The translations under genes were made by a program, and so were the position numbers. A model generated the notes under the pieces. It saw only the letters and a list, made by a program, of their open reading frames with translations. It had not been told where the DNA came from and searched no databases. This document shows, piece after piece, positions 36,555 through 57,135 of a stretch of 64,000 nt of DNA. Source of the DNA: Massilia rubra (GTDB taxonomy: Bacteria > Pseudomonadota > Gammaproteobacteria > Burkholderiales > Burkholderiaceae_D); contig NZ_VUYU01000006.1 in assembly GCF_011682065.1 (NCBI RefSeq), forward strand, positions 186,001 to 250,000, read 5' to 3'. The stretch's first letter is position 1. Each line of letters begins with the position of its first letter.

Positions 36555-37958
36555 ATGAGTTTTGAAGCATTAGGCCTCCACGCGTCTATCGTAAAAGCAG
36601 TAACCGATGCCGGTTACACCGTTCCGACCCCAGTCCAGGAGCAAGCTGTTCCTGCCGCCATCAGCGGCCGCGACCTGCTGGTGTCGTCGCAGACCGGTTC
36701 CGGCAAGACCGCAGCATTCATGCTGCCAGCACTTCACAAATTCGCCGTTGCCGAGCAATCGCAGGCGTCCAAGAATGCAGCCCAGGAAGCGCAAAATGCG
36801 CGTGCCCGCGGCGAGCGTCCACGTTTCAAAGCTGCACAGCCTAAAATGCTGGTGCTGACCCCGACCCGCGAACTGGCCCTGCAAGTGACCAGCGCAACCG
36901 AAAAATACGGCACCCAGATCCGCCGTATCAAGGCGGTATCGATCCTGGGCGGCATGCCTTATCCTAAACAGATGCAACTGCTGGCACGCAACCCGGAAAT
37001 CCTGGTCGCTACCCCTGGCCGTCTGATCGACCACATGGAATCGGGCAAGATCGATTTCTCGGAACTCGAAATCCTGGTGCTGGACGAAGCTGACCGCATG
37101 CTCGACATGGGTTTCATCGACGACATCGAAAAGATCATCGCCGCCACGCCTGCAAACCGCCAGACGATGCTGTTCTCGGCCACGCTCGACGGCATGGTTG
37201 GCAACATGGCACGCCGCATCACGACCGACCCGATGGTCATCCAGATCGCCGGTTCGGCCTCGAAGCACGAAAACATCGTGCAGCGCGTTCACTTCGTCGA
37301 CGACCTGTCGCACAAGAACCGCCTGCTCGACCATCTGCTGCGCGACGAAACGCTGGACCAGGCAGTGGTCTTCACCGCCACCAAGCGTGACGCCGACACC
37401 ATCGCCGACCGCCTGAACATCGCCGGTTTCTCGGCTGCCGCACTGCATGGCGACATGCACCAAGGCGCGCGTAACCGTACCCTCGACGGCCTGCGCCGCG
37501 GCCAGGTTCGCGTGCTGGTGGCGACCGACGTTGCCGCCCGTGGTATCGATGTCCCGAACATCACCCACGTGTTCAACTACGATCTGCCGAAGTTCCCAGA
37601 AGACTATGTGCACCGTATCGGCCGTACCGGCCGTGCCGGCCGCAATGGCCTGGCGATCTCGCTGGTGAACCATGCCGAAGGCATGAACGTCAAGCGTATC
37701 GAGCGCTTCACCAAGCAGCTCATTCCGGTCAACGTGATCGAAGGCTTCGAGCCGAAGAAAACCGCGTCGGCGCCACGTTCGGCTGCCCGTCCAGGCACCT
37801 GGAAACCAGGCGACAACCGCGGCGGCGCCAAGCCAGGCCAGCGTACGTTCAGCAAACCGGGCGCTCCGCGCAAGGAAGGCGCGGCCGGCGGCGGCTACAA
37901 GGGTTCGAACCCGCGTCCGGCCTCCGAGCGCACCCGCAGCTCGTACGGCGACCGTTAA
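36555..37958 (+). CDS. rhlE: DEAD-box RNA helicase, RhlE type
   Basis: A 467-residue ATP-dependent RNA helicase. All core motifs are present: the Q-motif region VPTPVQEQAVP, Walker A SSQTGSGKT, PTRELALQV, the DEAD box (LDEADRMLDMGF), SAT (FSATL) and HRIGRTGRAGR. The C-terminal 80 residues are a basic, Gly/Arg/Pro-rich tail of the kind that binds RNA non-specifically. An insert of about 25 residues rich in Ala, Gln and Arg follows motif I. It is a single-gene unit with a long leader and a clear terminator. Role: RNA remodelling or ribosome assembly, possibly in the cold. Confidence 0.92.
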   Translation: MSFEALGLHASIVKAVTDAGYTVPTPVQEQAVPAAISGRDLLVSSQTGSGKTAAFMLPALHKFAVAEQSQASKNAAQEAQNARARGERPRFKAAQPKMLVLTPTRELALQVTSATEKYGTQIRRIKAVSILGGMPYPKQMQLLARNPEILVATPGRLIDHMESGKIDFSELEILVLDEADRMLDMGFIDDIEKIIAATPANRQTMLFSATLDGMVGNMARRITTDPMVIQIAGSASKHENIVQRVHFVDDLSHKNRLLDHLLRDETLDQAVVFTATKRDADTIADRLNIAGFSAAALHGDMHQGARNRTLDGLRRGQVRVLVATDVAARGIDVPNITHVFNYDLPKFPEDYVHRIGRTGRAGRNGLAISLVNHAEGMNVKRIERFTKQLIPVNVIEGFEPKKTASAPRSAARPGTWKPGDNRGGAKPGQRTFSKPGAPRKEGAAGGGYKGSNPRPASERTRSSYGDR

Positions 37959-37984
37959 TCGTTCGCTGTAACGACTGATTCAAG

Positions 37985-38012
37985 AACGGCTGCTTCGGCA
38001 GCCGTTTTTTTT
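37985..38012 (+). terminator. Intrinsic terminator after rhlE
   Basis: AACGGCTGC and GCAGCCGTT pair over 9 bp around a TTCG tetraloop and are followed by a run of T. This is a textbook Rho-independent terminator. The convergent senA gene ends 27 bp further on and has no comparable signal of its own. Confidence 0.95.
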
Positions 38013-38038: not shown

Positions 38039-39235
38039 CTATAGCGCGCAGGTGCGGAATCCGCAGAATATATCGTCGCGCCCGGGCATGAAAAAATTGC
38101 GGAAGCGCGCCGACGCAAAGCGCGACGGCGTGGCAAACGAAGCCCCGCGCAGCACCTGGTGCGTCATGAACCACGGCGCCGAATACTCGCGGTAGCGGTC
38201 CGCCACAAAACCTGGATACGGCTCGAACGCGCTGCTGGTCCACTCCCACAACTGGCCCCAGCCGAACCCCGCCTGTCCCGACAGCGCCGCGTACTCCCAC
38301 TCCGCTTCGCCCGGCAAACGCCGTCCGGCCCACGCGCAATACGCCTGCGCCTCGAACAGGCACACATGGCGCACCGGCTCGGACGGCGCCAGCGTTGACA
38401 AGCGCCCGAAGCGCATCGTGCGCCACTGGTCGCCGTCGCGTTGCCAGTAGCGCGGCGACGAGCGCTCCTGGCGCATCAGCCACGCACTGCCGGCCGCGCT
38501 CCAGTACTGGCGGTTCTGGTAGCCGCCATCGGCCACGAAGTCGGCAAACTGCGCATTCGTCACCAGGCCCGCATCGATACGAAACGGCGCCACGTACACC
38601 GGGTGCGCCTGGCGCTCGTTGTCGAACACGAAGCCGCCCTCCTGCGCGCTGCCTTGCACCAGCGTGCCACCCGGATAGGCGATCTCGGACGACGGCCCGC
38701 ACAGCAATTGCGCCGGCAGCAGCCGGTCCGCCACCGGCACGCCCAGCGTCTGCAGGGTGTACAGGGACGCTTCGCCGTGCATGTCTTCGTGCGCCAGCGC
38801 CAGCCGGTAAGGATACAATGCCTCGTCGACGCCGGCCTCGCGCGAGAGCTTGTCGAGCGTGCGGTCGAGCACTTCGTGGCAGTAGGTCTTGAGCGCCCCG
38901 GCGCCGGGCAGGTCGAGCGTCCAGCGCGAACGGTGCGGCACGGTGTTCGAATCGAACCAGTCGTCGCCGCGCGTGAGCAGCGAATGGCGGGCGGCGTCGG
39001 CCGGGTGGCTCGAGGTCGCTTCGCGCAGGATGAACCACTCGGCAAACCATGCCGTGTGACCGAGCTCCCACAGCGGCGGATTGATGGTGGCGATGTGCGG
39101 CACGCGCGCCAGGCTGTCGTAACCCATGGCGGCGAAGCAGTCGAACAGGCCAAGGGTATAATTTCGGGCACTCTGGAGCGCCTCGGCCAGCGGCTGCGGC
39201 CTGGCGTGCCGGAACGATGCATTGATTGAGTTCAT
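38039..39235 (-). CDS. senA: Selenoneine synthase SenA (EgtB-like sulfoxide-synthase family)
   Basis: A 398-residue non-haem iron enzyme with a DinB-like N-terminal domain and a C-terminal FGE-sulfatase/C-type-lectin-like domain. The iron ligands are visible: H60 (WELGHTAWF) and the H149-x3-H153-x-E motif (HEDMHGE). In the described pathway SenA uses O2 to join a selenosugar to hercynine. The call rests mainly on context: senB is divergent 38 bp away and selD follows it, the known senABC set. A separate, more standard EgtB is encoded at 51471-52682, so this paralogue is not needed for ergothioneine. A TACAAT sequence only 7 bp before the ATG and no ribosome binding site suggest a leaderless mRNA. 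Confidence 0.88.
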   Translation of the reverse strand: MNSINASFRHARPQPLAEALQSARNYTLGLFDCFAAMGYDSLARVPHIATINPPLWELGHTAWFAEWFILREATSSHPADAARHSLLTRGDDWFDSNTVPHRSRWTLDLPGAGALKTYCHEVLDRTLDKLSREAGVDEALYPYRLALAHEDMHGEASLYTLQTLGVPVADRLLPAQLLCGPSSEIAYPGGTLVQGSAQEGGFVFDNERQAHPVYVAPFRIDAGLVTNAQFADFVADGGYQNRQYWSAAGSAWLMRQERSSPRYWQRDGDQWRTMRFGRLSTLAPSEPVRHVCLFEAQAYCAWAGRRLPGEAEWEYAALSGQAGFGWGQLWEWTSSAFEPYPGFVADRYREYSAPWFMTHQVLRGASFATPSRFASARFRNFFMPGRDDIFCGFRTCAL

Positions 39236-39250
39236 GGCGTCGATTGTAAC
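39222..39250. promoter_or_regulatory. Candidate overlapping divergent promoters of senA and senB
   Basis: On the plus strand TTGATT (39222-39227) and TGTAAC (39245-39250), 17 bp apart, could drive senB. On the minus strand TACAAT (rc of 39243-39248) could be the -10 of senA. The two -10 elements overlap on opposite strands, so polymerases would compete. No clear -35 is seen for senA, which may mean that it needs an activator. Confidence 0.4.
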
Positions 39251-39273
39251 GACTTTTTCAAAGGCGGCGCTGC

Positions 39274-40233
39274 GTGAAGAAACAGCTGTTGATCGTCAGT
39301 CCCGCCTCGGCGAAGGAAAACAACGGCAACTGGCAGACCGCCAGCCGCTGGGCGCACTTCCTGCGCGCGCGCTACCGGGTCGCCATCGCCCCCGGATGGC
39401 AGCCATCCGATTCCACGCCCGACCTGCTCATCGCCCTGCACGCGCGCCGTTCGGCCGGGGCCCTGGCCGCGTTTACCCAAGCCTGCCCGCAGCGGCCCTC
39501 GGTGCTGGTGCTGACCGGGACCGACCTGTATCGCGACATCGCCACCTGCGCCGAGGCCCAGGATTCGCTGCGGCACGCCAGCGCGCTGGTGCTGCTGCAA
39601 AGCGCCGGCCTGGCCCTGCTGCCCCCCGCCCTGCATGCGAAGACGCGCGTGATTTACCAGTCCGCGCCGGCGCTGGCCCCGCACCGCCACGCGCCCGGAC
39701 GGCGCCATGCCGACATCTGCATGATCGGCCACCTGCGCGCTGAAAAAGATCCGCTCACCTTCATGCGCGCCAGCGCCCTGGTCACCAGTCCCACGGCCCG
39801 CCTGCTGCACATCGGCGGGGCGCTCGATGCCGCGCTGGGCGAGGCCGCGCGCGCCACGGCGGCGGCCGACCCGCGCTACCAGTGGCTGGGCAACCTGGCG
39901 CACGGCGCGGCGCGCCAGCGCCTCAAGCGCTGCCACGCGATGGTGATCGCCTCGCGCATGGAGGGCGGCGCCAACGTCATCATCGAAGCCGTCACCAGCG
40001 CGGTGCCGGTGCTGGCCAGCGATATCAGCGGCAACCGGGGCATGCTGGGCGAGGACTATGCGGGCTATTTTGCGCCGGGTGACGCCCCCGCGCTGGCGAG
40101 CCTGATTGACCGCTGCATCGACGACCAAGCCTTCCATGCGCTGCTGCGGCGCCAGTGCGACGCGCGCGCCGCCTTGTTCGCCCCAAGCCATGAGCGCGCC
40201 AGTGTGCTCGACTTGGTGGATAATCTGGTCTGA
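39274..40233 (+). CDS. senB: Selenosugar synthase SenB (glycosyltransferase family 4-like)
   Basis: A 319-residue GT-B-fold glycosyltransferase-like protein. The N-terminal half has KKQLLIVSPASAKENNGNW, the GT4-like opening. The C-terminal half carries MIGHLRAEKDP, HIGGALD, YQWLGNLAHG and the nucleotide-sugar site SRMEGGANVIIEA. In the published pathway SenB makes a selenosugar from selenophosphate and a UDP-sugar, forming a carbon-selenium bond. The start is a GTG with AGGCGG 6 nt upstream. It is followed 29 bp later by selD, which supplies the selenophosphate. The gene order, not only the fold, supports the name. Confidence 0.85.
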   Translation: MKKQLLIVSPASAKENNGNWQTASRWAHFLRARYRVAIAPGWQPSDSTPDLLIALHARRSAGALAAFTQACPQRPSVLVLTGTDLYRDIATCAEAQDSLRHASALVLLQSAGLALLPPALHAKTRVIYQSAPALAPHRHAPGRRHADICMIGHLRAEKDPLTFMRASALVTSPTARLLHIGGALDAALGEAARATAAADPRYQWLGNLAHGAARQRLKRCHAMVIASRMEGGANVIIEAVTSAVPVLASDISGNRGMLGEDYAGYFAPGDAPALASLIDRCIDDQAFHALLRRQCDARAALFAPSHERASVLDLVDNLV

Positions 40234-40262
40234 CCCGCCCTTTACCGAAATGGACACCGATC

Positions 40263-41321
40263 ATGAGCAATGCCCCAGAGACCCCCATCAAACTCACCTC
40301 GTTTTCGCATGGCGGCGGCTGCGGCTGCAAAATCGCGCCGGGCGTGCTGTCCGAGATCCTGAAAAACTCGGGCGGTTTCCCGCTGCCGAAGGAACTGATG
40401 GTCGGGATCGAGACCGCCGACGACGCCGCCGTCTACAAGCTCAATGACGAACAGGCGCTGATCGCCACCACCGACTTCTTCATGCCGATCGTCGACGACC
40501 CGTTCGATTTCGGCCGCATCGCCGCCACCAACGCCATTTCCGACGTGTACGCGATGGGCGGCACGCCGATCATGGCGCTGGCGCTGGTCGGCATGCCGAT
40601 CAATAAACTGCCGATCGAGACCATCGGCGAGATCATTCGCGGCGGCCAGGTCATGTGCGCCGAAGCGGGCATTCCGATCGCCGGCGGCCACACCATCGAT
40701 TCGGTCGAGCCGATCTACGGGCTGGTGGTGCTGGGCCTGGTGCATCCGTCGAAGGTCAAGCGCAACGCCGACGCGCGTGCCGGCGACGTGCTCATTCTCG
40801 GCAAACCGCTGGGTGTGGGCGTGCTCTCGGCGGCGCTCAAGAAAGACGTGCTGGGACCGGAAGGCTATGCCGCCATGATCGCCAATACCACCAAGCTCAA
40901 TAAACCGGGCAAGGCCCTCTCGGAGATGGAAGGCGTGCATGCGCTGACCGACGTCACCGGCTTTGGCCTGTTGGGCCACCTGCTGGAACTGGCGCGCGGC
41001 GCGCAACTGACGGCGCAACTGAGCATGTCGCAGATTCCCCTGCTGCCGGGCGTGGAGCAACTGGCGCACGATGGCTACTTTACCGGCGCCTCGGGGCGCA
41101 ACTGGGATGCCTACGGCAAGGACGTGACGCTCTCGCCGAGCATCAGCGCGGCGCAGCATAACCTGCTGACCGACCCGCAAACCTCGGGCGGACTGCTGGT
41201 GTCGTGCGATCCGGGCAGCGTGGACGAGGTATTGGCGCTGTTCGCGCGCGAAGGCTTCGAGAGCGCCGCCGTAATCGGCGAAATGACGCAGGGCGCGCCA
41301 CGCGTGCAGGTCGCGGCGTAA
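40263..41321 (+). CDS. selD: Selenophosphate synthetase SelD (SenC)
   Basis: A 352-residue SelD, which makes selenophosphate from selenide and ATP. The catalytic Cys/Lys motif is intact as GGGCGCK, with C20 and K23 aligning with C17 and K20 of E. coli. Other marks are ETADDAAVY (ATP-binding Asp), TTDFFMPIVDDPFDFGRIAA, DVTGFGLLGHL and TDPQTSGGLL. Downstream of senB it plays the SenC role. No selA, selB, selC or mnmH (selU) gene is in the window, so whether the cell also makes selenocysteine or selenouridine cannot be judged here. Confidence 0.95.
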   Translation: MSNAPETPIKLTSFSHGGGCGCKIAPGVLSEILKNSGGFPLPKELMVGIETADDAAVYKLNDEQALIATTDFFMPIVDDPFDFGRIAATNAISDVYAMGGTPIMALALVGMPINKLPIETIGEIIRGGQVMCAEAGIPIAGGHTIDSVEPIYGLVVLGLVHPSKVKRNADARAGDVLILGKPLGVGVLSAALKKDVLGPEGYAAMIANTTKLNKPGKALSEMEGVHALTDVTGFGLLGHLLELARGAQLTAQLSMSQIPLLPGVEQLAHDGYFTGASGRNWDAYGKDVTLSPSISAAQHNLLTDPQTSGGLLVSCDPGSVDEVLALFAREGFESAAVIGEMTQGAPRVQVAA

Positions 41322-41357: not shown

Positions 41358-42080
41358 TCAGGCGGACTGGCGACGCTTGCGCGCGACAAAGCCCAGCATG
41401 GCCAGGCCGGCGCCGAGCATGGCCCAGCTGCTTGGCTCGGGCACAGCGGCGACCGAGAACGACAGGTTGTCGGCATAGCCATCGTTGTAGCTGCCTTCGA
41501 CCCGCTTCATGTCGAGCACGATGTCGACCAGCGTGCTGCCTACTGGAATGAAGCCATGGCTCTCACGAAATACCAGGCTGCTCAGTCCGCCACGGTCGCT
41601 CACGCTGACCGGCGCCAGGCTCTGGCTGAACAAGGTATTGCCGCTCTTGTCGCGGAACACGGCGGTCAAGGTGGCGTTGTCGCTTTGCGAAGCGTAGCCG
41701 CCCAGCCAGCCGGACAGGTCGAATTGCGACCGTCCGCCGTTGATGGCGTCGCTGTAGCCGCCCAGGTCGATCACCTGGACCGCACGCGATGCCGGCGTAT
41801 TGACGCCGCCAGCAAAAAAGTTCTTGCCGCGGTTTTGCGGACCGGCGTCGGCCGGCCCAGGGAAACCGCCGCTGGCGCCGTACTTGACCGAGGTCAGGCC
41901 ACCACTGACATTCCAGCCCGGCAGCGTGACCGTGCCGCCATCGCTCGAGCCGGCGCCGGCTTCGGCATCGCCGTTGACGATCAGGTTTTGACCGGGCGCG
42001 GCCGGGGCGGCATTCGCCGTTGCGGCGCAAGCGAGCGAACACGCCATCGATAATGCCATTGCTGCAGTTACAAAACGCAT
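41358..42080 (-). CDS. PEP-CTERM sorting-domain exported protein
   Basis: A 240-residue secreted protein with a signal peptide (about 24 residues, ending ATANA) and a C-terminal PEP-CTERM tag: VPEPSSWAMLGAGLAMLGF followed by the basic end ARKRRQSA. The tag is recognised by an exosortase (EpsH/XrtA), which is not in this window. The middle begins NLIVNGDAEAG, common in choice-of-anchor extracellular proteins, and is beta-rich, so a carbohydrate-binding-like fold is possible. The ATG at 42080 has AAGGGA upstream. Confidence 0.9.
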   Translation of the reverse strand: MRFVTAAMALSMACSLACAATANAAPAAPGQNLIVNGDAEAGAGSSDGGTVTLPGWNVSGGLTSVKYGASGGFPGPADAGPQNRGKNFFAGGVNTPASRAVQVIDLGGYSDAINGGRSQFDLSGWLGGYASQSDNATLTAVFRDKSGNTLFSQSLAPVSVSDRGGLSSLVFRESHGFIPVGSTLVDIVLDMKRVEGSYNDGYADNLSFSVAAVPEPSSWAMLGAGLAMLGFVARKRRQSA

Positions 42081-42349
42081 GGATTTCCCTTGAAATTGGT
42101 TAGAAACGGCGCATGTTTCACCGTCTTGAAATGACATGCAATTCTACAATGTTTACGCAATGAATTAGCATAAAGATAAGCCAACAATGGCGTCCTTGTC
42201 GGCAAAACAGCAACACGCATGCCATCGCCCCGCCTGGAAAAGACAAGATGCAAGGCCGATGATTTTTTTGGGGTATGGTGCGGCCCTGCGGCTGCGGGAC
42301 GGGTATGATCGATTGTCGTACCCACCTTGTACAGCTACAGGAGAACATG

Positions 42350-42948: not shown

Positions 42949-43014
42949 ATGTTCGCATCCGTCTCCCTCATTCAGTTTCTACTGCTAAAGCTACCGATCG
43001 GTTGCCTGGCCTAG
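42949..43014 (+). CDS. Leu-rich leader peptide 2 upstream of leuA
   Basis: A 21-codon ORF with 6 Leu codons; codons 11-13 and 15 read CTA, CTG, CTA, then CTA after one Lys. An AGGAAAG sequence lies 8 nt before the ATG. The stop (TAG) is 80 bp before the leuA ATG. It probably acts with, or instead of, leader 1 to sense charged tRNA-Leu. I could not identify a convincing terminator/antiterminator pair by eye; the intervening sequence is C-rich with several possible stems. Confidence 0.6.
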
Positions 43015-43094
43015 CGTATATCCGTGGCCGCCCGGCAGCCTGTCGCCACACCGCCGCCCGGCCCTTATCCGCTTTCGCCAAACAGGAGTACCCC

Positions 43095-44780
43095 ATGATG
43101 TTGCAGAATCCGTCGTCGAAATACCGCGCCTTCCCTCCAGTCAATTTGTCCGCCCGCCAGTGGCCGGATAACGCCATCACCCGTCCGCCGATCTGGATGA
43201 GCACCGACCTGCGCGACGGTAACCAGGCCCTGATCGAGCCGATGAGCCCGGAGAAAAAGCTGCGTTTCTTCGAGATGCTGGTCAAGATTGGCCTCAAGGA
43301 AATCGAAGTCGGTTTTCCATCGGCTTCCCAGACCGACTTCGATTTCGTGCGCAAGCTGATCGATGAAGACCGTATTCCCGAGGACGTGACCATCATCGTG
43401 CTGACCCAGTCGCGCGACGAACTGATCCGCCGTACCGTCGATTCCGCCGTCGGCGCGCGCCGTGCCATCGTGCACTTGTATAACTCGGTGGCGCCGGTGT
43501 TCCGCAAGGTGGTGTTTGGCATGACGCGCGAGCAGATTACCGAGATCGCCGTCAGCGGCACCAAGCTGGTCAAGGAACTGGTCAAGCAGCATCCGCAGAC
43601 GGACTGGGGTTTCGAATACACGCCGGAATCGTTTTCGACCACGGAACTGGATTTCTCCAAGCACATCTGCGACGCGGTCAGCGATATCTGGCAGCCGACG
43701 CCGCATAACAAGATGATCGTCAACCTGCCCTCCACCGTGGAATGCAGCACGCCGAACGTGTACGCGGACCAGATCGAATGGATGTCGCGCAAGCTGGCGC
43801 GGCGCGATTCGCTGATCATCAGCGTCCATCCGCACAACGACCGGGGGACGGCGGTGGCATCGGCCGAGCTGGCCATCATGGCGGGCGCCGACCGGGTCGA
43901 AGGCTGCCTGTTCGGCAACGGCGAGCGCACCGGCAATGTCGACCTCGTCACTTTGGCGATGAATCTGTACACCCAGGGCGTGCATCCGGGGCTCGATTTC
44001 TCCGATATCGATGCCGTGCGCCAGGTGGTGGAAGAATGCAACCAACTGCCCGTGCATCCGCGCCATCCGTATGCGGGCGACCTGGTGTTTACGGCGTTCT
44101 CCGGTTCGCACCAGGATGCGATCAAAAAAGGCTTTGCCCAGCAGAAGCCAAATACCTTGTGGGAAGTGCCGTATTTGCCGATCGACCCGGCCGACCTGGG
44201 ACGCAGCTACGATGCGGTGATTCGTGTCAACAGCCAGTCCGGCAAGGGCGGAATGGCGTATCTGCTGGAACAGGAATTCGGCTTGAGCTTGCCGCGCCGC
44301 TTGCAGATCGAGTTCAGCCGGGCGGTACAGGCGGTGGCCGACGCTAGCGGCCGCGAGATTGCGGCCAAGGAAATTCATGCGATCTTTTGCAGCGAGTATT
44401 TTGACCAGGCCAGCCCGTACGCGTACAGCGCCCACAAGATGGTGGAAGACAGCAGCAACGACGAGCCGGTGCAGATCGATATCACCCTGGCGCACCGCCA
44501 GGCCAGCCTGAGTTTGCAGGGTGGCGGCAACGGGCCGATCGATGCGTTCGTCAATGCGCTGGGACTCGATATCAAGCTGATGGATTACCACGAGCATGCA
44601 ATCGGCTCGGGCGCGAATGCCAAGGCCGCGTGTTATGTGGAATTGCGCCTGGAGAATGGTCCGACCATGTTCGGCGCGGGGATCGACAGCAATATTGTGA
44701 CGGCCTCGTTCAAGGCGGTGCTCAGTGCGGTGAACCGGCAGTTGGTGCGGGCCGAAAAAGAGCTGGCGGTAGCGCAGTAA
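43095..44780 (+). CDS. leuA: 2-Isopropylmalate synthase (long form)
   Basis: A 561-residue LeuA that condenses acetyl-CoA with 2-oxoisovalerate, the first committed step of leucine synthesis. It belongs to the type seen in actinobacteria and some proteobacteria, opening [19 protein letters not shown]. The catalytic barrel has [11 protein letters not shown] and the metal motif HPHNDRG. The C-terminal LeuA allosteric domain (about 430-555) binds leucine for feedback control. The ATG at 43095 has AGGAG 6 nt upstream. It stands alone without leuBCD and is preceded by two Leu-rich leader ORFs. Confidence 0.95.
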
Positions 44781-50538: not shown

Positions 50539-51474
50539 TCACGCCGCCGGCCGCGTCGTCATCGGTATCGGCTCCTTGTTCTGCTCATTGCGCCCGGCCC
50601 GCTCGTATTCCGAAATCACCTGCGCGCCGAACAGCAGCAAGGTCGCCCCGATCTCCAGGCTGAACATGACCACGATGGCGGTCGTCATCGACCCGTACAC
50701 CATATTCACCTGCGACAAGGTCGAAAAGTACCAGACCAGCACATGGCGCGCGATTTCCCACAGCAGCGCCGCCGTCACGCCGCCAATGAGCGCGTGCGAC
50801 AGCGACAGCCGCCCCACCGGCATCACCAGGTAGATGGAACTGAGCACCAGGATTTCCCCGCTCAGTCCCAGGCAGTACAGCAGCACGCCCGAGACCCCGC
50901 CGAGCGACCATTCGTAGCCGAGGAAGTGCACGCTCTCCTCGCCCATCACCTGCAAGGTGCCCGCCACCAGCGTGACGATCATGATGCCCGCGCCGAGCGC
51001 CAGGATATAACAGTAAGGCAGGATCGCCGATATCAAAAAGCGCCGCCGCCGGATCGCCACGCGGTGATGGAAGATCACGCTCATCGCGTTTTCCAGCGCG
51101 GTGAAGGCGAGCGAACTAAAAAACAGCATGCTGGCGAACAGCACCCAGGTCACCAGGTCGCGATCGTCCATGAAGTGCGCCAGTTCGCCCACGATGGCTT
51201 TCGACTGCCCCGGCACCAGCCACTCCAGGTAGCGCCCCAGGGTCGAGAGCAACTCGGCCTGGTCGATGAAGTGCGACAGCGCCACCACCACCAGCATCAG
51301 GAACGGCACGATCGACAGCAGCGCGTAATAGGCCACCGCGCCGGCCAGCAGCAAGCCCTGGTTGGCCTTGAAGCCCTTGAGCGTGCGCCACGCGAATTCG
51401 AGCGGATGGCCGAGCACATACGCGTTGGCCCGGCGGTTCAATATGCGCAAGCGCAAACCTCTGGTGCCCTTCAT
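50539..51474 (-). CDS. yihY: YihY/UPF0761 family membrane protein
   Basis: A 311-residue inner-membrane protein with about six helices, of the YihY (once called RNase BN) family. Typical parts are FKANQGLLLAGAVAYYALLS and the VPFLMLVVVAL helix, then ALLWEIARHVLVWYFSTLS and YGSMTTAIVVMFSLEIGATL. Function is unknown; tRNA processing is no longer attributed to this family. The start overlaps the egtB stop (ATGA), so it is the last gene of egtD-egtB-yihY. Whether it serves export or retention of ergothioneine or selenoneine is an open idea only. Confidence 0.9.
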   Translation of the reverse strand: MKGTRGLRLRILNRRANAYVLGHPLEFAWRTLKGFKANQGLLLAGAVAYYALLSIVPFLMLVVVALSHFIDQAELLSTLGRYLEWLVPGQSKAIVGELAHFMDDRDLVTWVLFASMLFFSSLAFTALENAMSVIFHHRVAIRRRRFLISAILPYCYILALGAGIMIVTLVAGTLQVMGEESVHFLGYEWSLGGVSGVLLYCLGLSGEILVLSSIYLVMPVGRLSLSHALIGGVTAALLWEIARHVLVWYFSTLSQVNMVYGSMTTAIVVMFSLEIGATLLLFGAQVISEYERAGRNEQNKEPIPMTTRPAA

Positions 51475-52682
51475 CGCGCGAGCCTGATGCCGGTAAACTG
51501 CCAGCGTGCGCCGGCCGGGAAGAAGTTGCGGTAGCTGGCGCGCGCATGCCCCGGCGGCGTGGCGCACGAGGAGCCGCGCAGCACGTACTGGTTGAGCATG
51601 AATTTGCCATTGTATTCGCCCAGCGCGCCGGGCGCGCAGGCGTAGCCCGGATACGGCGCGTAACTGCTGCTGGTCCACTGCCAGCACTCGCCGAACATCT
51701 GCAGCAAGCCCTCGCCCTGCGGCGCGCAAGCCGGATGCAAGCCACCCGTGAGCGTGCCGATGCCGGCGCAGGCGACTTCCCATTCGGCCTCGGTCGGCAG
51801 GCGCGCGTCCATCCAGTGCGCGAAGGCGTCGGCCTCATACAGCGACAGATGCGTGGCCGGCCGCGCAGGGTCGAGCGGCAGCAAGCCGTGCAGGGTGAAT
51901 TCGTGCCACTGCCCGTGCGCGTCGCGCTGCCAGTACAGCGGGTGCGCCAGTGTCAGCTCGCACACGCGGTCCCAGCCCTCGGACAACCACAGCGCCGGCT
52001 CGCGGTAGCCGCCGGCCTCGATGAAGGCCAGGTACTCGCCATTGGTGACCAGGCGCGAGGCCAGCGTAAACGGCGCCACATACTGGCGGTGGCGCGGCAG
52101 TTCGTTATCGAAGCAAAAGCCGGCGTCGGCGTGGCCGATGTCGGCCACGCCGCCATCGAAACCGATCCACGCCAGCGGCGCGGCCGACGGCGAGCGTGGC
52201 AGCGCGCTATCCATATACGCGGGCCACATGGCGTTCTGCGCCAGCATGTGCTTCACATCGGTGAGAATGAGTTCCTGGTGCTGCTGCTCGTGCTGCAAAC
52301 CGAGTTCCAGCAGGCGCAGCAGCTCGTCGCCCGGCTGCGCCGCCAGCAAGCGCGCCACGCGCGCATCCACATCGGCGCGGTAAGCGCGCACCTCGCGCAC
52401 GGCGGGACGGGTCAGCAAGGAGCGCTGGGCGCGCGGATGGCGCTCGCCGATACCGTTGTAATAGGAGTTGAACAGGACCCGGAAGGCCGGATGAAACGGC
52501 GCGAAGCCTTCTTCGAAGCGCTCTAATATGAACGTCTCGAAAAACCAGGTGGTATGCGCCAGGTGCCATTTGACCGGACTGGCGTCTGGCATCGACTGGG
52601 CGCCGCAGTCTTCGTCCGAGAGCGGCTCGGCCAGCATCAGCGAGCGTTTGCGCACGCCGTCGTAGAGATCGCGCATGCTCAT
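51471..52682 (-). CDS. egtB: Ergothioneine sulfoxide synthase EgtB
   Basis: A 403-residue non-haem iron enzyme that joins gamma-glutamylcysteine or cysteine to hercynine with O2. The DinB-like domain carries the iron ligands H43 (LAHTTWFFE), H131 and H135 in HEQQHQE; the FGE-sulfatase domain follows (for example LPTEAEWEVACAG, GECWQWTSSSY and RGSSCATPPGHAR). The start at 52682 overlaps the egtD stop by 4 bp. It is a paralogue of SenA but more standard, including the SYYNGIGERHPR segment that SenA lacks. Confidence 0.92.
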   Translation of the reverse strand: MSMRDLYDGVRKRSLMLAEPLSDEDCGAQSMPDASPVKWHLAHTTWFFETFILERFEEGFAPFHPAFRVLFNSYYNGIGERHPRAQRSLLTRPAVREVRAYRADVDARVARLLAAQPGDELLRLLELGLQHEQQHQELILTDVKHMLAQNAMWPAYMDSALPRSPSAAPLAWIGFDGGVADIGHADAGFCFDNELPRHRQYVAPFTLASRLVTNGEYLAFIEAGGYREPALWLSEGWDRVCELTLAHPLYWQRDAHGQWHEFTLHGLLPLDPARPATHLSLYEADAFAHWMDARLPTEAEWEVACAGIGTLTGGLHPACAPQGEGLLQMFGECWQWTSSSYAPYPGYACAPGALGEYNGKFMLNQYVLRGSSCATPPGHARASYRNFFPAGARWQFTGIRLAR

Positions 52683-53644
52683 CGCGGTATGGCACGCGCG
52701 TAGACGACCGCGAACCACTGATCGGGATCGGTCCACACATGCACGCTGCGAAATCCGCCCTGCTCTAACAGGCCGACCGCCGCGCTCTGGCGGTACTTGT
52801 AACTGTTCTCGGTATGAATACGCTCGCCCGCCGCAAAAAATCGTTCGCCGCCCGGCCAGCGCACGCTCACAGCTTCGCGCGCTTCGAGGTGCATCTCGAC
52901 CCGGCTCTCGATGGGATTGAAAAAGCCGCGGTGACGCCACTGCGCCACGTTGAAATCTGCGCCGATGAGCTGGTTCACGTGGCGCAGGATGTTCAGGTTA
53001 AAGGCCGCCGTGACGCCGATGGCGTCGTCGTAGGCCGCGTCGAGGGTGGCGGCGTCCTTGACCAGGTCGATCCCGATCAGCAGCGCGCCATCGTCATCGC
53101 AGCTGTCGCGCAAGCGGCGCAGGAAAGAACGCGCCTGCTCGGGCGTGTAGTTGCCGATCGACGAGCCGGGATAGAAAAACAGCCGCTTTTCCGCGCGCAC
53201 CACGCCCGGCAAGGCAAGCCCCTCCGAAAAATCGAGCCCCAGCCCGGTCATCTCGATATGCGGAAAGCGCTGTTGCAACCGCTCGATCGACTCGCGCAGG
53301 AAATCGTACGAGATATCGATGGCCACATACTGGGCCGGATGGAGCAGCGGGAACAGGCGCGCCGCCTTGGCGCAGTTGCCCGCGCCCAGGTCGATCATGG
53401 TGGCGCCGGGACCGACCGCGCGCGCGATCTCGGCCCCGTGGCGCACCGCGATGGACGCCTCGGTGCGGGTCGGATAATACTCGGGCAGTTCGCAAATGGC
53501 CTCGAACAGGCGCGAACCGAGCGCGTCGTAGAGAAATTTAGGCGAAATCGCCGCCTCCCTGCCGAGCAGGCCGGCACGCAGTTCGGAGGCAATGGCGTCG
53601 CCCGAGCGCGCGTCGCGCGCATCGGCCAGGCTGGAGGTCGGCAT
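52679..53644 (-). CDS. egtD: L-histidine N-alpha-methyltransferase EgtD
   Basis: A 321-residue SAM-dependent enzyme that trimethylates histidine to hercynine, the shared precursor of ergothioneine and selenoneine. Motifs: KFLYDALGSRLFEAICELPEYYPTRTE, of which residues 36-61 form the histidine site; the SAM loop MIDLGAGNCAKAARL; and FFYPGSSIGNY. Length matches characterised EgtD. The ATG at 53644 is chosen over a codon 48 bp upstream. It is the first gene of egtD-egtB-yihY and is divergent from the PhnD-type transporter, with 137 bp between starts. Confidence 0.94.
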   Translation of the reverse strand: MPTSSLADARDARSGDAIASELRAGLLGREAAISPKFLYDALGSRLFEAICELPEYYPTRTEASIAVRHGAEIARAVGPGATMIDLGAGNCAKAARLFPLLHPAQYVAIDISYDFLRESIERLQQRFPHIEMTGLGLDFSEGLALPGVVRAEKRLFFYPGSSIGNYTPEQARSFLRRLRDSCDDDGALLIGIDLVKDAATLDAAYDDAIGVTAAFNLNILRHVNQLIGADFNVAQWRHRGFFNPIESRVEMHLEAREAVSVRWPGGERFFAAGERIHTENSYKYRQSAAVGLLEQGGFRSVHVWTDPDQWFAVVYARAIPR

Positions 53645-53781
53645 AGTTTTATTGGTCAATCGAAATCGCTGCGTGGGTGTTTTTGTTATCATAGCTGAAT
53701 ATCCCGTATTTCACGGTCCACCCGGCGTTCAAGCGTGCTCGCTGGCCGGCTCCCCCATCGACCTTCCCAGGACAGGCTACC

Positions 53782-54669
53782 ATGACCAATTTCTCCACCC
53801 GGCGCACCCTTAAAACCATGCTGGCTGCATCAATCGGCGCCACCTTGCTGCTGGCCGGCGCCAGCGCCCTCGCCCAGGTTACTCCGGGCGTGCTGCGCGT
53901 GTCGGCCATTCCCGACGAAGCGCCGACCGAATTGCAGCGCAAGTTCAAGCCGCTGGGCGACTACCTGGCCAAGGCCACCGGCCTGAAAGTCGAATTCACC
54001 CCGGTCACCGATTATCCGGCCGCCGTCGAAGGCCTGGTCAACAAGCGCCTCGACCTGGTCTGGTTCGGCGGCTTCACCTTCGTGCAGGCCAATGTGCGCA
54101 GCAAGGGCCAGGTCACGCCGCTGGTGCAGCGCCAGGAAGATACCGCCTTCCGCTCGGTGTTCGTCACCACCAAGGCCGACATCAACAAGCTCGATGACCT
54201 CAAGGGCAAGACCCTGAGCTTCGGTTCCGAATCGTCGACCTCGGGCCACCTGATGCCGCGCTCGTACCTGCTGGCCGCCAAGATCGATCCGGACGCCGAC
54301 CTCAAACGCGTGGCCTACTCGGGCGCGCACGACGCCACCGTGGCCGCTGTCGCCGGCGGCAAGGTCGACGCGGGCGCGCTCAATATCTCGGTCTGGGAAA
54401 AACTGGTCGCCGAGAAGAAGGTCGATCCGGCCGCCGTGCGCGTGTTCTACACCACCCCCGGCTACTTCGACTACAACTGGAGCGTGCGCTCCGACATGCC
54501 GGCCGCGATGAAAAAGAAGCTGACCGACGCCTTCCTCGCCCTCGACAAGTCCACGCCTGAAGGCAAGGAAATCCTGGAGCTGCAAAAAGCGAGCAAGTTC
54601 GTGCCGACCACGCCCGACAATTACAAGTCCATCGAAGCGGCCGCGCGCAGCGCCAAGCTGCTCAAGTAA
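53782..54669 (+). CDS. PhnD-family substrate-binding protein, putative selenium-oxyanion importer
   Basis: A 295-residue periplasmic binding protein with a signal peptide of about 31 residues (ending ASALAQ). It has the PhnD fold: RVSAIPDEAPTELQRKFKPL, VTDYPAAVEGLVNKRLDLVWFGG and FGSESSTSGHLMP. PhnD proteins bind phosphonate or phosphite, but one clade has been named putative selenate-binding because its genes occur with selD. The location beside egtD and near senA-senB-selD favours that reading. No phosphonate-degrading genes are present. It is the first gene of a transporter operon with its own ATPase and two permeases. Confidence 0.78.
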   Translation: MTNFSTRRTLKTMLAASIGATLLLAGASALAQVTPGVLRVSAIPDEAPTELQRKFKPLGDYLAKATGLKVEFTPVTDYPAAVEGLVNKRLDLVWFGGFTFVQANVRSKGQVTPLVQRQEDTAFRSVFVTTKADINKLDDLKGKTLSFGSESSTSGHLMPRSYLLAAKIDPDADLKRVAYSGAHDATVAAVAGGKVDAGALNISVWEKLVAEKKVDPAAVRVFYTTPGYFDYNWSVRSDMPAAMKKKLTDAFLALDKSTPEGKEILELQKASKFVPTTPDNYKSIEAAARSAKLLK

Positions 54670-54686: not shown

Positions 54687-55502
54687 ATGACCACCTACCG
54701 GCTCGAAAAACTCACCGTGCGGCACCAGGCCGGCACGCGTGCGCCGGCCTTGCACGCGATCGACCTGGTGGTGGAACAAGGCGAGCAACTGGCCGTGATC
54801 GGCCCTTCCGGCGCCGGCAAGACCACCTTGCTGCACACCCTGGCGTGCGCCCACGCGCCGGCCGACGGCGTGTTCCAGGCCTTCGGCCGGCAACCGTGGG
54901 CCTTGAGCGGCAAGGCGCGCCACCAGTTGCGCGCCAACCTGTTCCTGGCGCCGCAAACGCCGCCCCTGCCGCCGCGCCAGCGCGTGGTCAGCGCGGTGCT
55001 GGCGGCGCGCCTGCCGCACTGGAGCCTGTTCCAGGCGCTGTCCTCTTTATTCAAGCCAGTCGACCCGGATGCCGCCTACGATGCGCTGGCACGCTTCGGC
55101 CTTGGCGACAAACTGTATGCGCGGGTCGACCGCCTGTCGGGCGGGGAGCGCCAGCGCTGCGGCCTGGCGCGCCTGCTGCTCTCGTCGGCCAAGGTGTTCC
55201 TGGTCGACGAGCCGCTCTCCGCGCTCGACCCGGCGCTGTCGCAACTGACCCTCTCGGCCCTGCAGCAAGAGGCCGCAAGGCGCAACGCCACCCTGATCTG
55301 CAGCCTGCACCAGGTGGAGATGGCGCGCGCCAATTTTGCCCGCATCGTCGGGCTGCGCGACGGCCGTATCGTGTTCGATTGCGCGCGCGACGACGTCAGC
55401 GACGCCATGATCGCCGCCCTGTACCAGAACGAATCGGTCGCGCCGCATCCGCACGAAACGCACGCGACACCCGATCGCCTGGCCATCGGCGCCTGCTTTT
55501 AG
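54687..55502 (+). CDS. ABC transporter ATP-binding protein (PhnC-like)
   Basis: A 271-residue ATPase of the import class. Walker A is GPSGAGKTT, the signature is LSGGERQRCGLARLL, and Walker B is VFLVDEPLSALD. It lies 17 bp after the binding-protein gene and 14 bp before the first permease. The C-terminal 25 residues are a His-containing extension (HPHETHATPD) not needed for ATPase function. It energises the two adjacent permeases. Confidence 0.85.
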   Translation: MTTYRLEKLTVRHQAGTRAPALHAIDLVVEQGEQLAVIGPSGAGKTTLLHTLACAHAPADGVFQAFGRQPWALSGKARHQLRANLFLAPQTPPLPPRQRVVSAVLAARLPHWSLFQALSSLFKPVDPDAAYDALARFGLGDKLYARVDRLSGGERQRCGLARLLLSSAKVFLVDEPLSALDPALSQLTLSALQQEAARRNATLICSLHQVEMARANFARIVGLRDGRIVFDCARDDVSDAMIAALYQNESVAPHPHETHATPDRLAIGACF

Positions 55503-55516
55503 CCTGCCCGCAGCGC

Positions 55517-56347
55517 ATGCCCCCTTCCCTCCAACAACATCCGGACCCGGCATGGCGCGCGCGCGTGGCCATGGTCGTCATTGGCGCGGCGCTGCTATGG
55601 CCCGCCATGGTGTTGAGCGAATTCAAACCGTGGATCCTGTTCGACCTGCAAAGCCTGAAGGCCGCCGGCGGTTTTCTGGTCGGCTTCCTGACGCCGGCCC
55701 ATTCGCCCGAGTTCTTGTCGATGGTGCTGCGCGAAACCTGGCAAACGGTGGCCATCGCCACCGCCGGCCTGGCGCTGGCGCTGCTCGGCGCCATTCCCGC
55801 CACCCTGATCGTCACCGAGCGCCTGTCGGTCTCGCGCCTGGGCACGGGGCGCATGCACTGGGCCGCCAGCGCGCTGCGCCAGGTCGTGCGCTGGGTGCTG
55901 GTGCTGCTGCGCAGCGTGCCCGAACTGGTATGGGCGATCCTGTTCGTGCGCGTGGTGGGCCTTGGCCCGACCGCCGGCGTGCTGGCCATTGCGCTCACTT
56001 ACTGCGGCATGCTGGGCAAGGTGTACGCCGAAATCCTCGAATCGTCCGACGCCCACGCCACCGAAACGCTGCTGGCCAACGGCACCTCGCGCCTTGCCGC
56101 CCTGCTGTACGGCGCCTTGCCCGAATCGGGCTCCGAACTGGTGTCGTACACCGTCTACCGCTGGGAGTGCGCCATCCGCGGCTCGGCGGTGATCGGTTTC
56201 GTGGGCGCCGGCGGACTCGGTCAGCGCATGGATGAATCGACCCGCATGATGGCCGGCGGCGAAGTGTGCACCATGCTGATCATGTTCGTGCTGCTGGTCG
56301 CGCTGGCCGACTGGGTATCCAAACTGCTGCGCCGGAGGCTCGGATGA
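55517..56347 (+). CDS. ABC transporter permease 1 (PhnE-like)
   Basis: A 276-residue inner-membrane permease with about six helices. The EAA loop that contacts the ATPase is around ETLLANGTSRLAALLYGALPES. It shares LRSVPELVWAILFVRVVGLGP with permease 2, so the two arose by duplication and probably form a heterodimer. The ATG at 55517 is 14 bp after the ATPase gene; the longer in-frame reading runs through that gene and is rejected. Its stop overlaps permease 2 (ATGA). Confidence 0.85.
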   Translation: MPPSLQQHPDPAWRARVAMVVIGAALLWPAMVLSEFKPWILFDLQSLKAAGGFLVGFLTPAHSPEFLSMVLRETWQTVAIATAGLALALLGAIPATLIVTERLSVSRLGTGRMHWAASALRQVVRWVLVLLRSVPELVWAILFVRVVGLGPTAGVLAIALTYCGMLGKVYAEILESSDAHATETLLANGTSRLAALLYGALPESGSELVSYTVYRWECAIRGSAVIGFVGAGGLGQRMDESTRMMAGGEVCTMLIMFVLLVALADWVSKLLRRRLG

Positions 56348-57135
56348 CGCGCCGCCTGCCTGTGGCGCCGCCGCGCCAGTATTCGACCTGGCTGCTCGGC
56401 GCGGCCCTGCTGGCGCTGGTGGTGGCCAGCTTCGCCTCGCTGCCGCTGCAATGGTCGGCTTTTCTCTCGCCCGACGCGGCCACGGTAACGATGGAATTTT
56501 TGGCCGGCTTCGCCCCGCCCGAGACCGCGCCGGCGTTCTTGCGCAAGACCGCGCTGGCCGCCCTGGAAACGCTGTCGATGTCGGCCATCGGCACCCTGCT
56601 GGCGGTGGGAGGCGGCCTGGCGCTGTCGATGTCGGCCGCGGGGCGCTTCGGCCGCATCCAGCGCGCCGTCGCGCGCGCCCTGCTCAACGTGCTGCGCTCG
56701 ATTCCGGAACTGGTATGGGCCTCGCTGCTGCTGGTGGCCGCCGGTCTGGGGCCGTTCGCCGGCACCCTGGCGCTGGCGGCGCACACCAGCGGCGTGCTCG
56801 GACGCCTGTTCGCCGACGCGCTGGAAAACACCGACCCGCACCCGGAACGCTCGCTGCTTGCCAACGGCGCCTCGCCCGGCGCCGCGTTCTGCTACGCCAC
56901 CCTGCCGCAAACGCTGCCCCAGATGCTCTCGTACACCCTGTACCGCTGGGAGAACAATATCCGCGCCGCCGCCGTGCTGGGCGTGGTCGGCGCCGGCGGC
57001 CTTGGCCAGATGCTCAAATTTCACCTGTCGCTGTTCCAGATGCAAAGCGCGGCCACCGTCATCATCGCCATGCTGCTGCTGGTGGCGCTGGTCGACGCGG
57101 CCAGCTTTGCGCTGCGCCGCGCCCTGACCCGTTAA
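56344..57135 (+). CDS. ABC transporter permease 2 (PhnE-like)
   Basis: A 263-residue permease with about six helices and the same LRSIPELVWASLLLVAAGLGP segment as permease 1, plus the EAA loop SLLANGASPGAAFCYATLPQ. It overlaps permease 1 by 4 bp. With the binding protein and ATPase it completes a standard importer. The following ATPase gene starts 27 bp later. Confidence 0.85.
   Translation: MTRRLPVAPPRQYSTWLLGAALLALVVASFASLPLQWSAFLSPDAATVTMEFLAGFAPPETAPAFLRKTALAALETLSMSAIGTLLAVGGGLALSMSAAGRFGRIQRAVARALLNVLRSIPELVWASLLLVAAGLGPFAGTLALAAHTSGVLGRLFADALENTDPHPERSLLANGASPGAAFCYATLPQTLPQMLSYTLYRWENNIRAAAVLGVVGAGGLGQMLKFHLSLFQMQSAATVIIAMLLLVALVDAASFALRRALTR

Follow-up and report, generated by a model that had tools for sequence, protein, structure and literature searches.

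Positions 38039-41321 of a 64,000-nucleotide stretch of the Massilia rubra genome (referred to here as the window) very probably hold a working locus for the biosynthesis of selenoneine, a selenium antioxidant made by some bacteria, and the probability of this reading is put at roughly 0.92. The locus is an ordinary, complete copy of an already known pathway, which has been described in PMC9814287, PMC10702425 and PMC10891094. All three open reading frames are intact, with the coordinates assigned to them in an earlier sequence-based proposal (the original prediction): senA, encoding selenoneine synthase, a nonheme iron enzyme of the EgtB superfamily (38039-39235, minus strand, 398 amino acids, ATG start); senB, encoding selenosugar synthase, a GT-B, GT4-like Se-glycosyltransferase (39274-40233, plus strand, 319 amino acids, GTG start); and selD (= senC), encoding selenophosphate synthase (40263-41321, plus strand, 352 amino acids, ATG start). 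Each protein scores above the cut-off of a curated model, which bears out the complete senA-senB-selD set that had been proposed, and the sen cluster of Variovorax paradoxus DSM 30034 (senA, senB, senC/selD) is made up of the same three families. Crystallised enzymes can be aligned with the window SenA and SenB over nearly the whole length. The window adds a clear Massilia-type case, in which genes for hercynine synthesis, for an ergothioneine enzyme and perhaps for selenium uptake are close by; open-licence PMC yielded no paper that links selenoneine to Oxalobacteraceae, to Massilia or to a pseudoenzyme, which is a weak negative.

SenA was recognised by the model NF041186 with 529.3 bits (cut-off 420), and it matches the PDB entries 8ryz and 8k5i, both named selenoneine synthase, with an E-value of about 1e-97. 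Inspection of the protein confirmed the residues by which an EgtB-like iron enzyme had been predicted, the HEDMHGE motif beginning at residue 149 and the other histidine being residue 60, and the putative iron triad H60, H149 and H153, to which iron binding is ascribed by homology, is complete. A tree of 130 rows, built by a quick method and rooted at the midpoint, places the homologues of SenA and of EgtB on two sides, each with a Shimodaira-Hasegawa-like approximate likelihood ratio test (SH-aLRT) support of 100. Within it, the window SenA lies with the SenA of PDB 8ryz, nearest to Massilia atriviolacea, and the window EgtB lies with the EgtB of PDB 6o6l. Compared with this nearest named relative, Massilia atriviolacea, the ratio of nonsynonymous to synonymous substitution rates (dN/dS) of SenA is 0.10.

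For SenB, the model TIGR04348 gives 410.7 bits (cut-off 300), with the next models far below (NF038229 at 111 with a cut-off of 400, then 39 or less). The best PDB match is 8k5u (1.5e-78), and Variovorax SenB 8jjn matches with 3.7e-75. In a tree of 53 rows, all 36 SenB rows, two PDB SenB included, form one group with support 100/99, apart from 17 other GT4 rows whose branches are long and whose internal order is unsure. PMC10891094 reports that N20, T23, E231 and K158 of Variovorax SenB matter, as does the selenophosphate pocket formed by N20, H58, R61, T83, T85 and R155. By alignment, with the numbering mapped by hand, these tested residues correspond to N19, T22, E230, K158, H56, R59, T81, T83 and R155 of the window protein, all identical amino acids, and D84 and E238 are further tested residues mapped in the same way. 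Across 84 SenB sequences, a relative-biased set made up of the window protein and 83 relatives, N19, H56, T81, T83, D84, R155, K158, E230 and E238 are present in every one, R59 in 83 and T22 in 73 (serine in the other 11). Model, residues and tree therefore agree that the small GT4-like glycosyltransferase noted earlier is SenB.

SelD reaches 548 bits with PRK00943 (cut-off 299) and matches PDB 3u0o with 7e-100. It carries the sequence HGGGCGCK with Cys20 and Lys23, which we take to be the catalytic residues, so the cysteine and lysine said to be retained are both in place. A SelD search of the whole genome (7.57 Mb, 118 contigs, completeness rated at 100%) revealed a single SelD place. One MnmH is encoded on another contig, with a CWRGG motif that is presumably of the rhodanese type, and since one SelD was found and MnmH is present, this SelD most likely serves both selenoneine and tRNA 2-selenouridine formation and is probably no dedicated SenC. 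A part for selD in selenocysteine synthesis was considered and rejected, as the SelA model had no match in the genome while the E. coli control scored over the cut-off, selB and selC not having been sought.

The gene order of the locus is divergent, with senA facing away from senB-selD and the two start codons separated by a 38-bp spacer (39236-39273, from the open reading frame coordinates). The idea that the three genes sit together holds in so far as they adjoin and are all complete, and fails for a single co-directional run. Because only 38 bp lie between the senA and senB starts, the divergent promoters must extend into the genes; a promoter scan found none in this spacer and gave one weak match, inside senA. 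The locus is flanked by genes for the rhlE helicase (36555-37958) and leuA (43002-44780). In Massilia atriviolacea the sen locus has the same layout as in the window, with SenA, SenB and SelD being 94%, 89% and 96% identical (L058).

The same arrangement recurs among relatives. The loci compared by name are the best 80 of at least 576 and lean to Oxalobacteraceae and close kin; senA is divergent within 300 bp of senB in 68 of these 80 (gaps of 21-154 bp between aligned ends), and selD adjoins senB in 72. Among 145 sampled genomes of the family, 61 have SenB over its cut-off, including 8/8 of the window's genus, and in a wider sample of 398 phylum genomes SenB passes in 13 and SenA in 11. SenA over its cut-off accompanies SenB in 58 of the 61 family genomes, within 5 kb in 55 of them; of the other three, two proved on reading of the locus to have a SenA with its triad that the model listing had missed (L162, L164; the G094 protein carries an insertion and the G004 protein is divergent), and G098 has none. 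The sen locus is thus common in its family, not rare, and the statement that few organisms have been studied for the pathway stands for bench work but not as a claim of rarity. Even at the bench, SenB enzymes beyond one strain have already been assayed, as PMC10891094 states. Two of the loci, L110 and L118, have senA split over two frames, with selD also short in L110, and are either decaying or mis-sequenced.

The chemistry proposed for the window is taken from the published Variovorax enzymes, and its operation in this strain is inferred. Briefly, SelD would convert selenide and adenosine triphosphate into selenophosphate, which SenB would join to a uridine diphosphate sugar with cleavage of the Se-P bond, yielding a 1-seleno-sugar. 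SenA, using iron held at H60, H149 and H153 together with O2, would then join this selenosugar to C2 of the hercynine imidazole, after which the selenoxide would eliminate the sugar and reduction would give selenoneine. Hercynine would be supplied by EgtD, encoded 12 kb off, and would feed both EgtB for ergothioneine and SenA, so the bacterium probably makes both compounds. Selenium could enter the cell through a neighbouring transporter. The gene egtD, for histidine N-alpha-methyltransferase, lies at 52679-53692 on the minus strand (TIGR03438 372 bits, cut-off 290.9; PF10017). The egtB gene, for an ergothioneine synthase of the Cabther type, lies at 51471-52682 on the same strand and begins inside the egtD stop with a 4-bp overlap; its product scores 548 bits with TIGR03440 (cut-off 360), matches PDB 6o6l with 1.6e-129, and stays under the SenA model cut-off of 420 with 382 bits.

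The presence of this complete EgtB beside EgtD, as had been predicted for elsewhere in the window, bears on whether SenA could itself be an ordinary EgtB that merely happens to be near selD. SenA and EgtB do belong to one superfamily, the two window proteins are about 33-37% identical, and SenA obtains 288 bits with the EgtB model. This score is below the EgtB cut-off of 360, yet SenA passes the cut-off of its own model, and the two families are parted in the tree with full support. The Chloracidobacterium-type EgtB (PDB 6o6l, Cabther) shares with SenA the superfamily and the three-histidine site, but its counterpart is the window EgtB, not SenA. Model scores, tree and the full EgtB beside EgtD speak strongly against this identity, which is given hardly any probability and was rejected, and SenA is unlikely to be the ergothioneine enzyme, as the original prediction had argued. 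A similar judgement applies to SenB as a GT4 enzyme of polysaccharide or capsule synthesis: Pfam does show only general GT1/GT4 domains, whereas the TIGR04348 score, the separation from the other GT4 enzymes in the tree and the linkage to selD make such a role extremely improbable, and it was discarded. Neither of the two groupings named in the original prediction as refuting it, SenA with EgtB or SenB with polysaccharide glycosyltransferases, was seen in the trees. What weighs against a working selenoneine locus is of another kind. NF041186 is also passed by SenA homologues that have no iron triad, so the model name alone is no proof, the triad of the window protein being intact. The single SelD has two uses, so the locus is no proof of dedicated selenium flux. 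Finally, two donor-contact sites are E157 and N234 in the window SenB but V157 and H235 in the assayed enzyme of Variovorax, where V157 contacts the N-acetyl group according to PMC10891094. The same paper lists RsSenB (Ramlibacter sp., PDB 8k5u) and CbSenB as assayed Se-glycosyltransferases from sen clusters; RsSenB likewise has V157 and the EGGAHV motif printed for Variovorax-like SenB, whereas the window protein reads EGGANV. In the 84-row set E157 is present in every row (L036, outside that set, has V), and position 234 is N in 63, H in 13 and Q in 8, a spread which indicates that the histidine is not defining for the wider SenB family. The assayed enzymes thus carry residue states that are in the minority within this relative-biased set, and the window SenB adds the E157 and N234 variants, which are commoner among the relatives examined.

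A further alternative concerns the product rather than the genes, namely that the selenosugar is also used elsewhere and selenoneine is one product among others, with SelD-SenB as the core and SenA as a user that may be absent. Six genomes hold SenB-SelD without a SenA having been found (L059, L067, L069, L070, L073 and L198), five of them from Massilia alkalitolerans, Massilia sp. Leaf139, M. brevitalea, Massilia sp. IC2-278 and Massilia sp. MS-15 (G098). In these five, no protein reached the cut-off of the SenA model, and a query with the SenA of the window retrieved only EgtB-like matches of 36-39% identity; their SenB active-site residues are intact. In G362, a genome of one contig rated 100% complete, SenB-SelD lies among lnt, purH, nadD and proA, and the window SenA query had no match there, while it does match in G000. 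Moreover, SenA is present but unlinked to SenB in nine further genomes having both (G540, G541, G545, G547, G548, G550, G056, G079 and G128). A Rhodoferax metagenome-assembled genome (L135, G549) was left out of the SenA-less count because one of its contigs ends in a C-terminal remnant that resembles SenA. On the other side, all parts stand together in the window with the SenA triad kept, the five Massilia assemblies are drafts whose completeness is known for MS-15 only, and just one SenB genome without SenA occurs among the 145 family genomes. This broader use of the selenosugar is therefore regarded as unlikely, though clearly less remote than a wrong identity of SenA or SenB, and a selenoneine locus remains the preferred reading of the window.

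What is new lies outside the window: the loss of the iron site in SenA relatives that have been kept, which together with the SenB-only genomes merits the attention of specialists. Each of the 19 SenA homologues that lack a partner SenB (L150-L153, L155-L161, L167, L170-L173, L192, L195 and L196) has lost His153 while its reading frame stays open; 14 occur in genomes in which no SenB was found, and five are second copies in genomes that also have a working SenA (G128, G058, G115, G389 and G479). Of the family genomes over the SenA cut-off (70-71 counted, 70 used in the analysis), 12 have no SenB over its cut-off, and in each of these 12 SenA proteins His153 is replaced by Cys, Arg or Gln, several also lacking H60 or H149. 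G001 and G398, with SenA homologues under the cut-off, bring the SenB-less genomes to 14, in which the window SenB query gave no more than partial matches, none above 50 bits, against 271 bits for the G362 control. By comparison, the three histidines are found in 94/94 distinct SenA beside SenB and in all 13 distinct SenA away from SenB, every one from a genome with SenB elsewhere (distinct meaning 99% clusters, with the L110 and L118 pieces of 250 amino acids or less left out). The 12 ligand-less family rows nest inside the SenA side of the 130-row tree. The dN/dS of the ligand-less copies, obtained by the simple Nei-Gojobori method for 13 of the 19 (excluding L157, L160, L167, L192, L195 and L196), has medians of 0.12 in a group of seven sequences and 0.18 in a group of six, the latter from 14 of 15 usable pairs with dS of 0.9 and more and thus near saturation, values that resemble the 0.15-0.20 measured for working SenA in three groups. 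The ligand-less copy of G128 (L153) sits between the rhlE helicase and leuA genes like the sen locus of the window, which suggests that it arose by decay in place.

There is about an even chance that these proteins are a new family that came out of the sen locus, in which SenA, where SenB is missing or a second copy exists, loses His153 and often H60 or H149, holds no EgtB-type iron and is kept by selection in a non-enzymatic or differently acting form, with hercynine, ergothioneine or selenoneine as possible ligands. The window would then represent the ancestral working state, and the survival of SenB-SelD past SenA in six genomes would point to selenosugars as products in themselves. Against a pseudoenzyme, loss of the EgtB-type ligands is no proof that metal or all activity has been lost, and seven of the 14 genomes belong to one genus (g6), so that the set is not one of independent cases. 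What keeps a dead SenA in these genomes can be put directly to the test. As NF041186 also names proteins without an iron site, counts of selenoneine producers made by it alone would be too high (12 of 70 family genomes), which is mended by requiring SenB and the triad. The same model seems to take in OvsA-like proteins as well: the SenA homologues L183-L185 (from G214, G282 and G317) score 435-441 bits with it, bear the motif HQ(N/H)MHIES, and by their sequences resemble OvsA, the ovoselenol enzyme (compare PDB 8ux5), so they may not be SenA proper.

Near the ergothioneine genes, and divergent from egtD-egtB, lie a putative selenate ATP-binding cassette (ABC) transporter substrate-binding protein (53782-54669, plus strand; TIGR04553 396.5 bits over a cut-off of 250, the model being a hypothetical equivalog) and an adjoining ABC transporter ATPase (54687-55502, plus strand; PF00005, PhnC-like with 182 bits, where the PhnC model requires 266). 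An open reading frame with a permease domain follows at 56266-57135, its assignment being unsure. The egtD and egtB genes and that of the binding protein are 10-14 kb from selD. At the 80 sen loci, homologues of the binding protein occur in 24, of EgtD in 30, of EgtB in 22 and of any of the three in 39, raw counts that come from flanks of up to 8 kb, often shorter; in Massilia atriviolacea egtD-egtB and the binding protein are on another contig (L174), so that this linkage is not comparable with the window. A tRNA scan of the window found none, and a terminator scan gave four terminator-like minus-strand sites, compared with 2.6 in shuffled sequence. Directly past selD, a protein with a PEP-CTERM sorting motif is encoded at 41358-42137 on the minus strand. 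In the gap where rhlE and senA converge, a GC-rich hairpin flanked by runs of A and T can be made out by eye (37979-38012); it is absent from the list of the terminator scan and is perhaps a two-way terminator.

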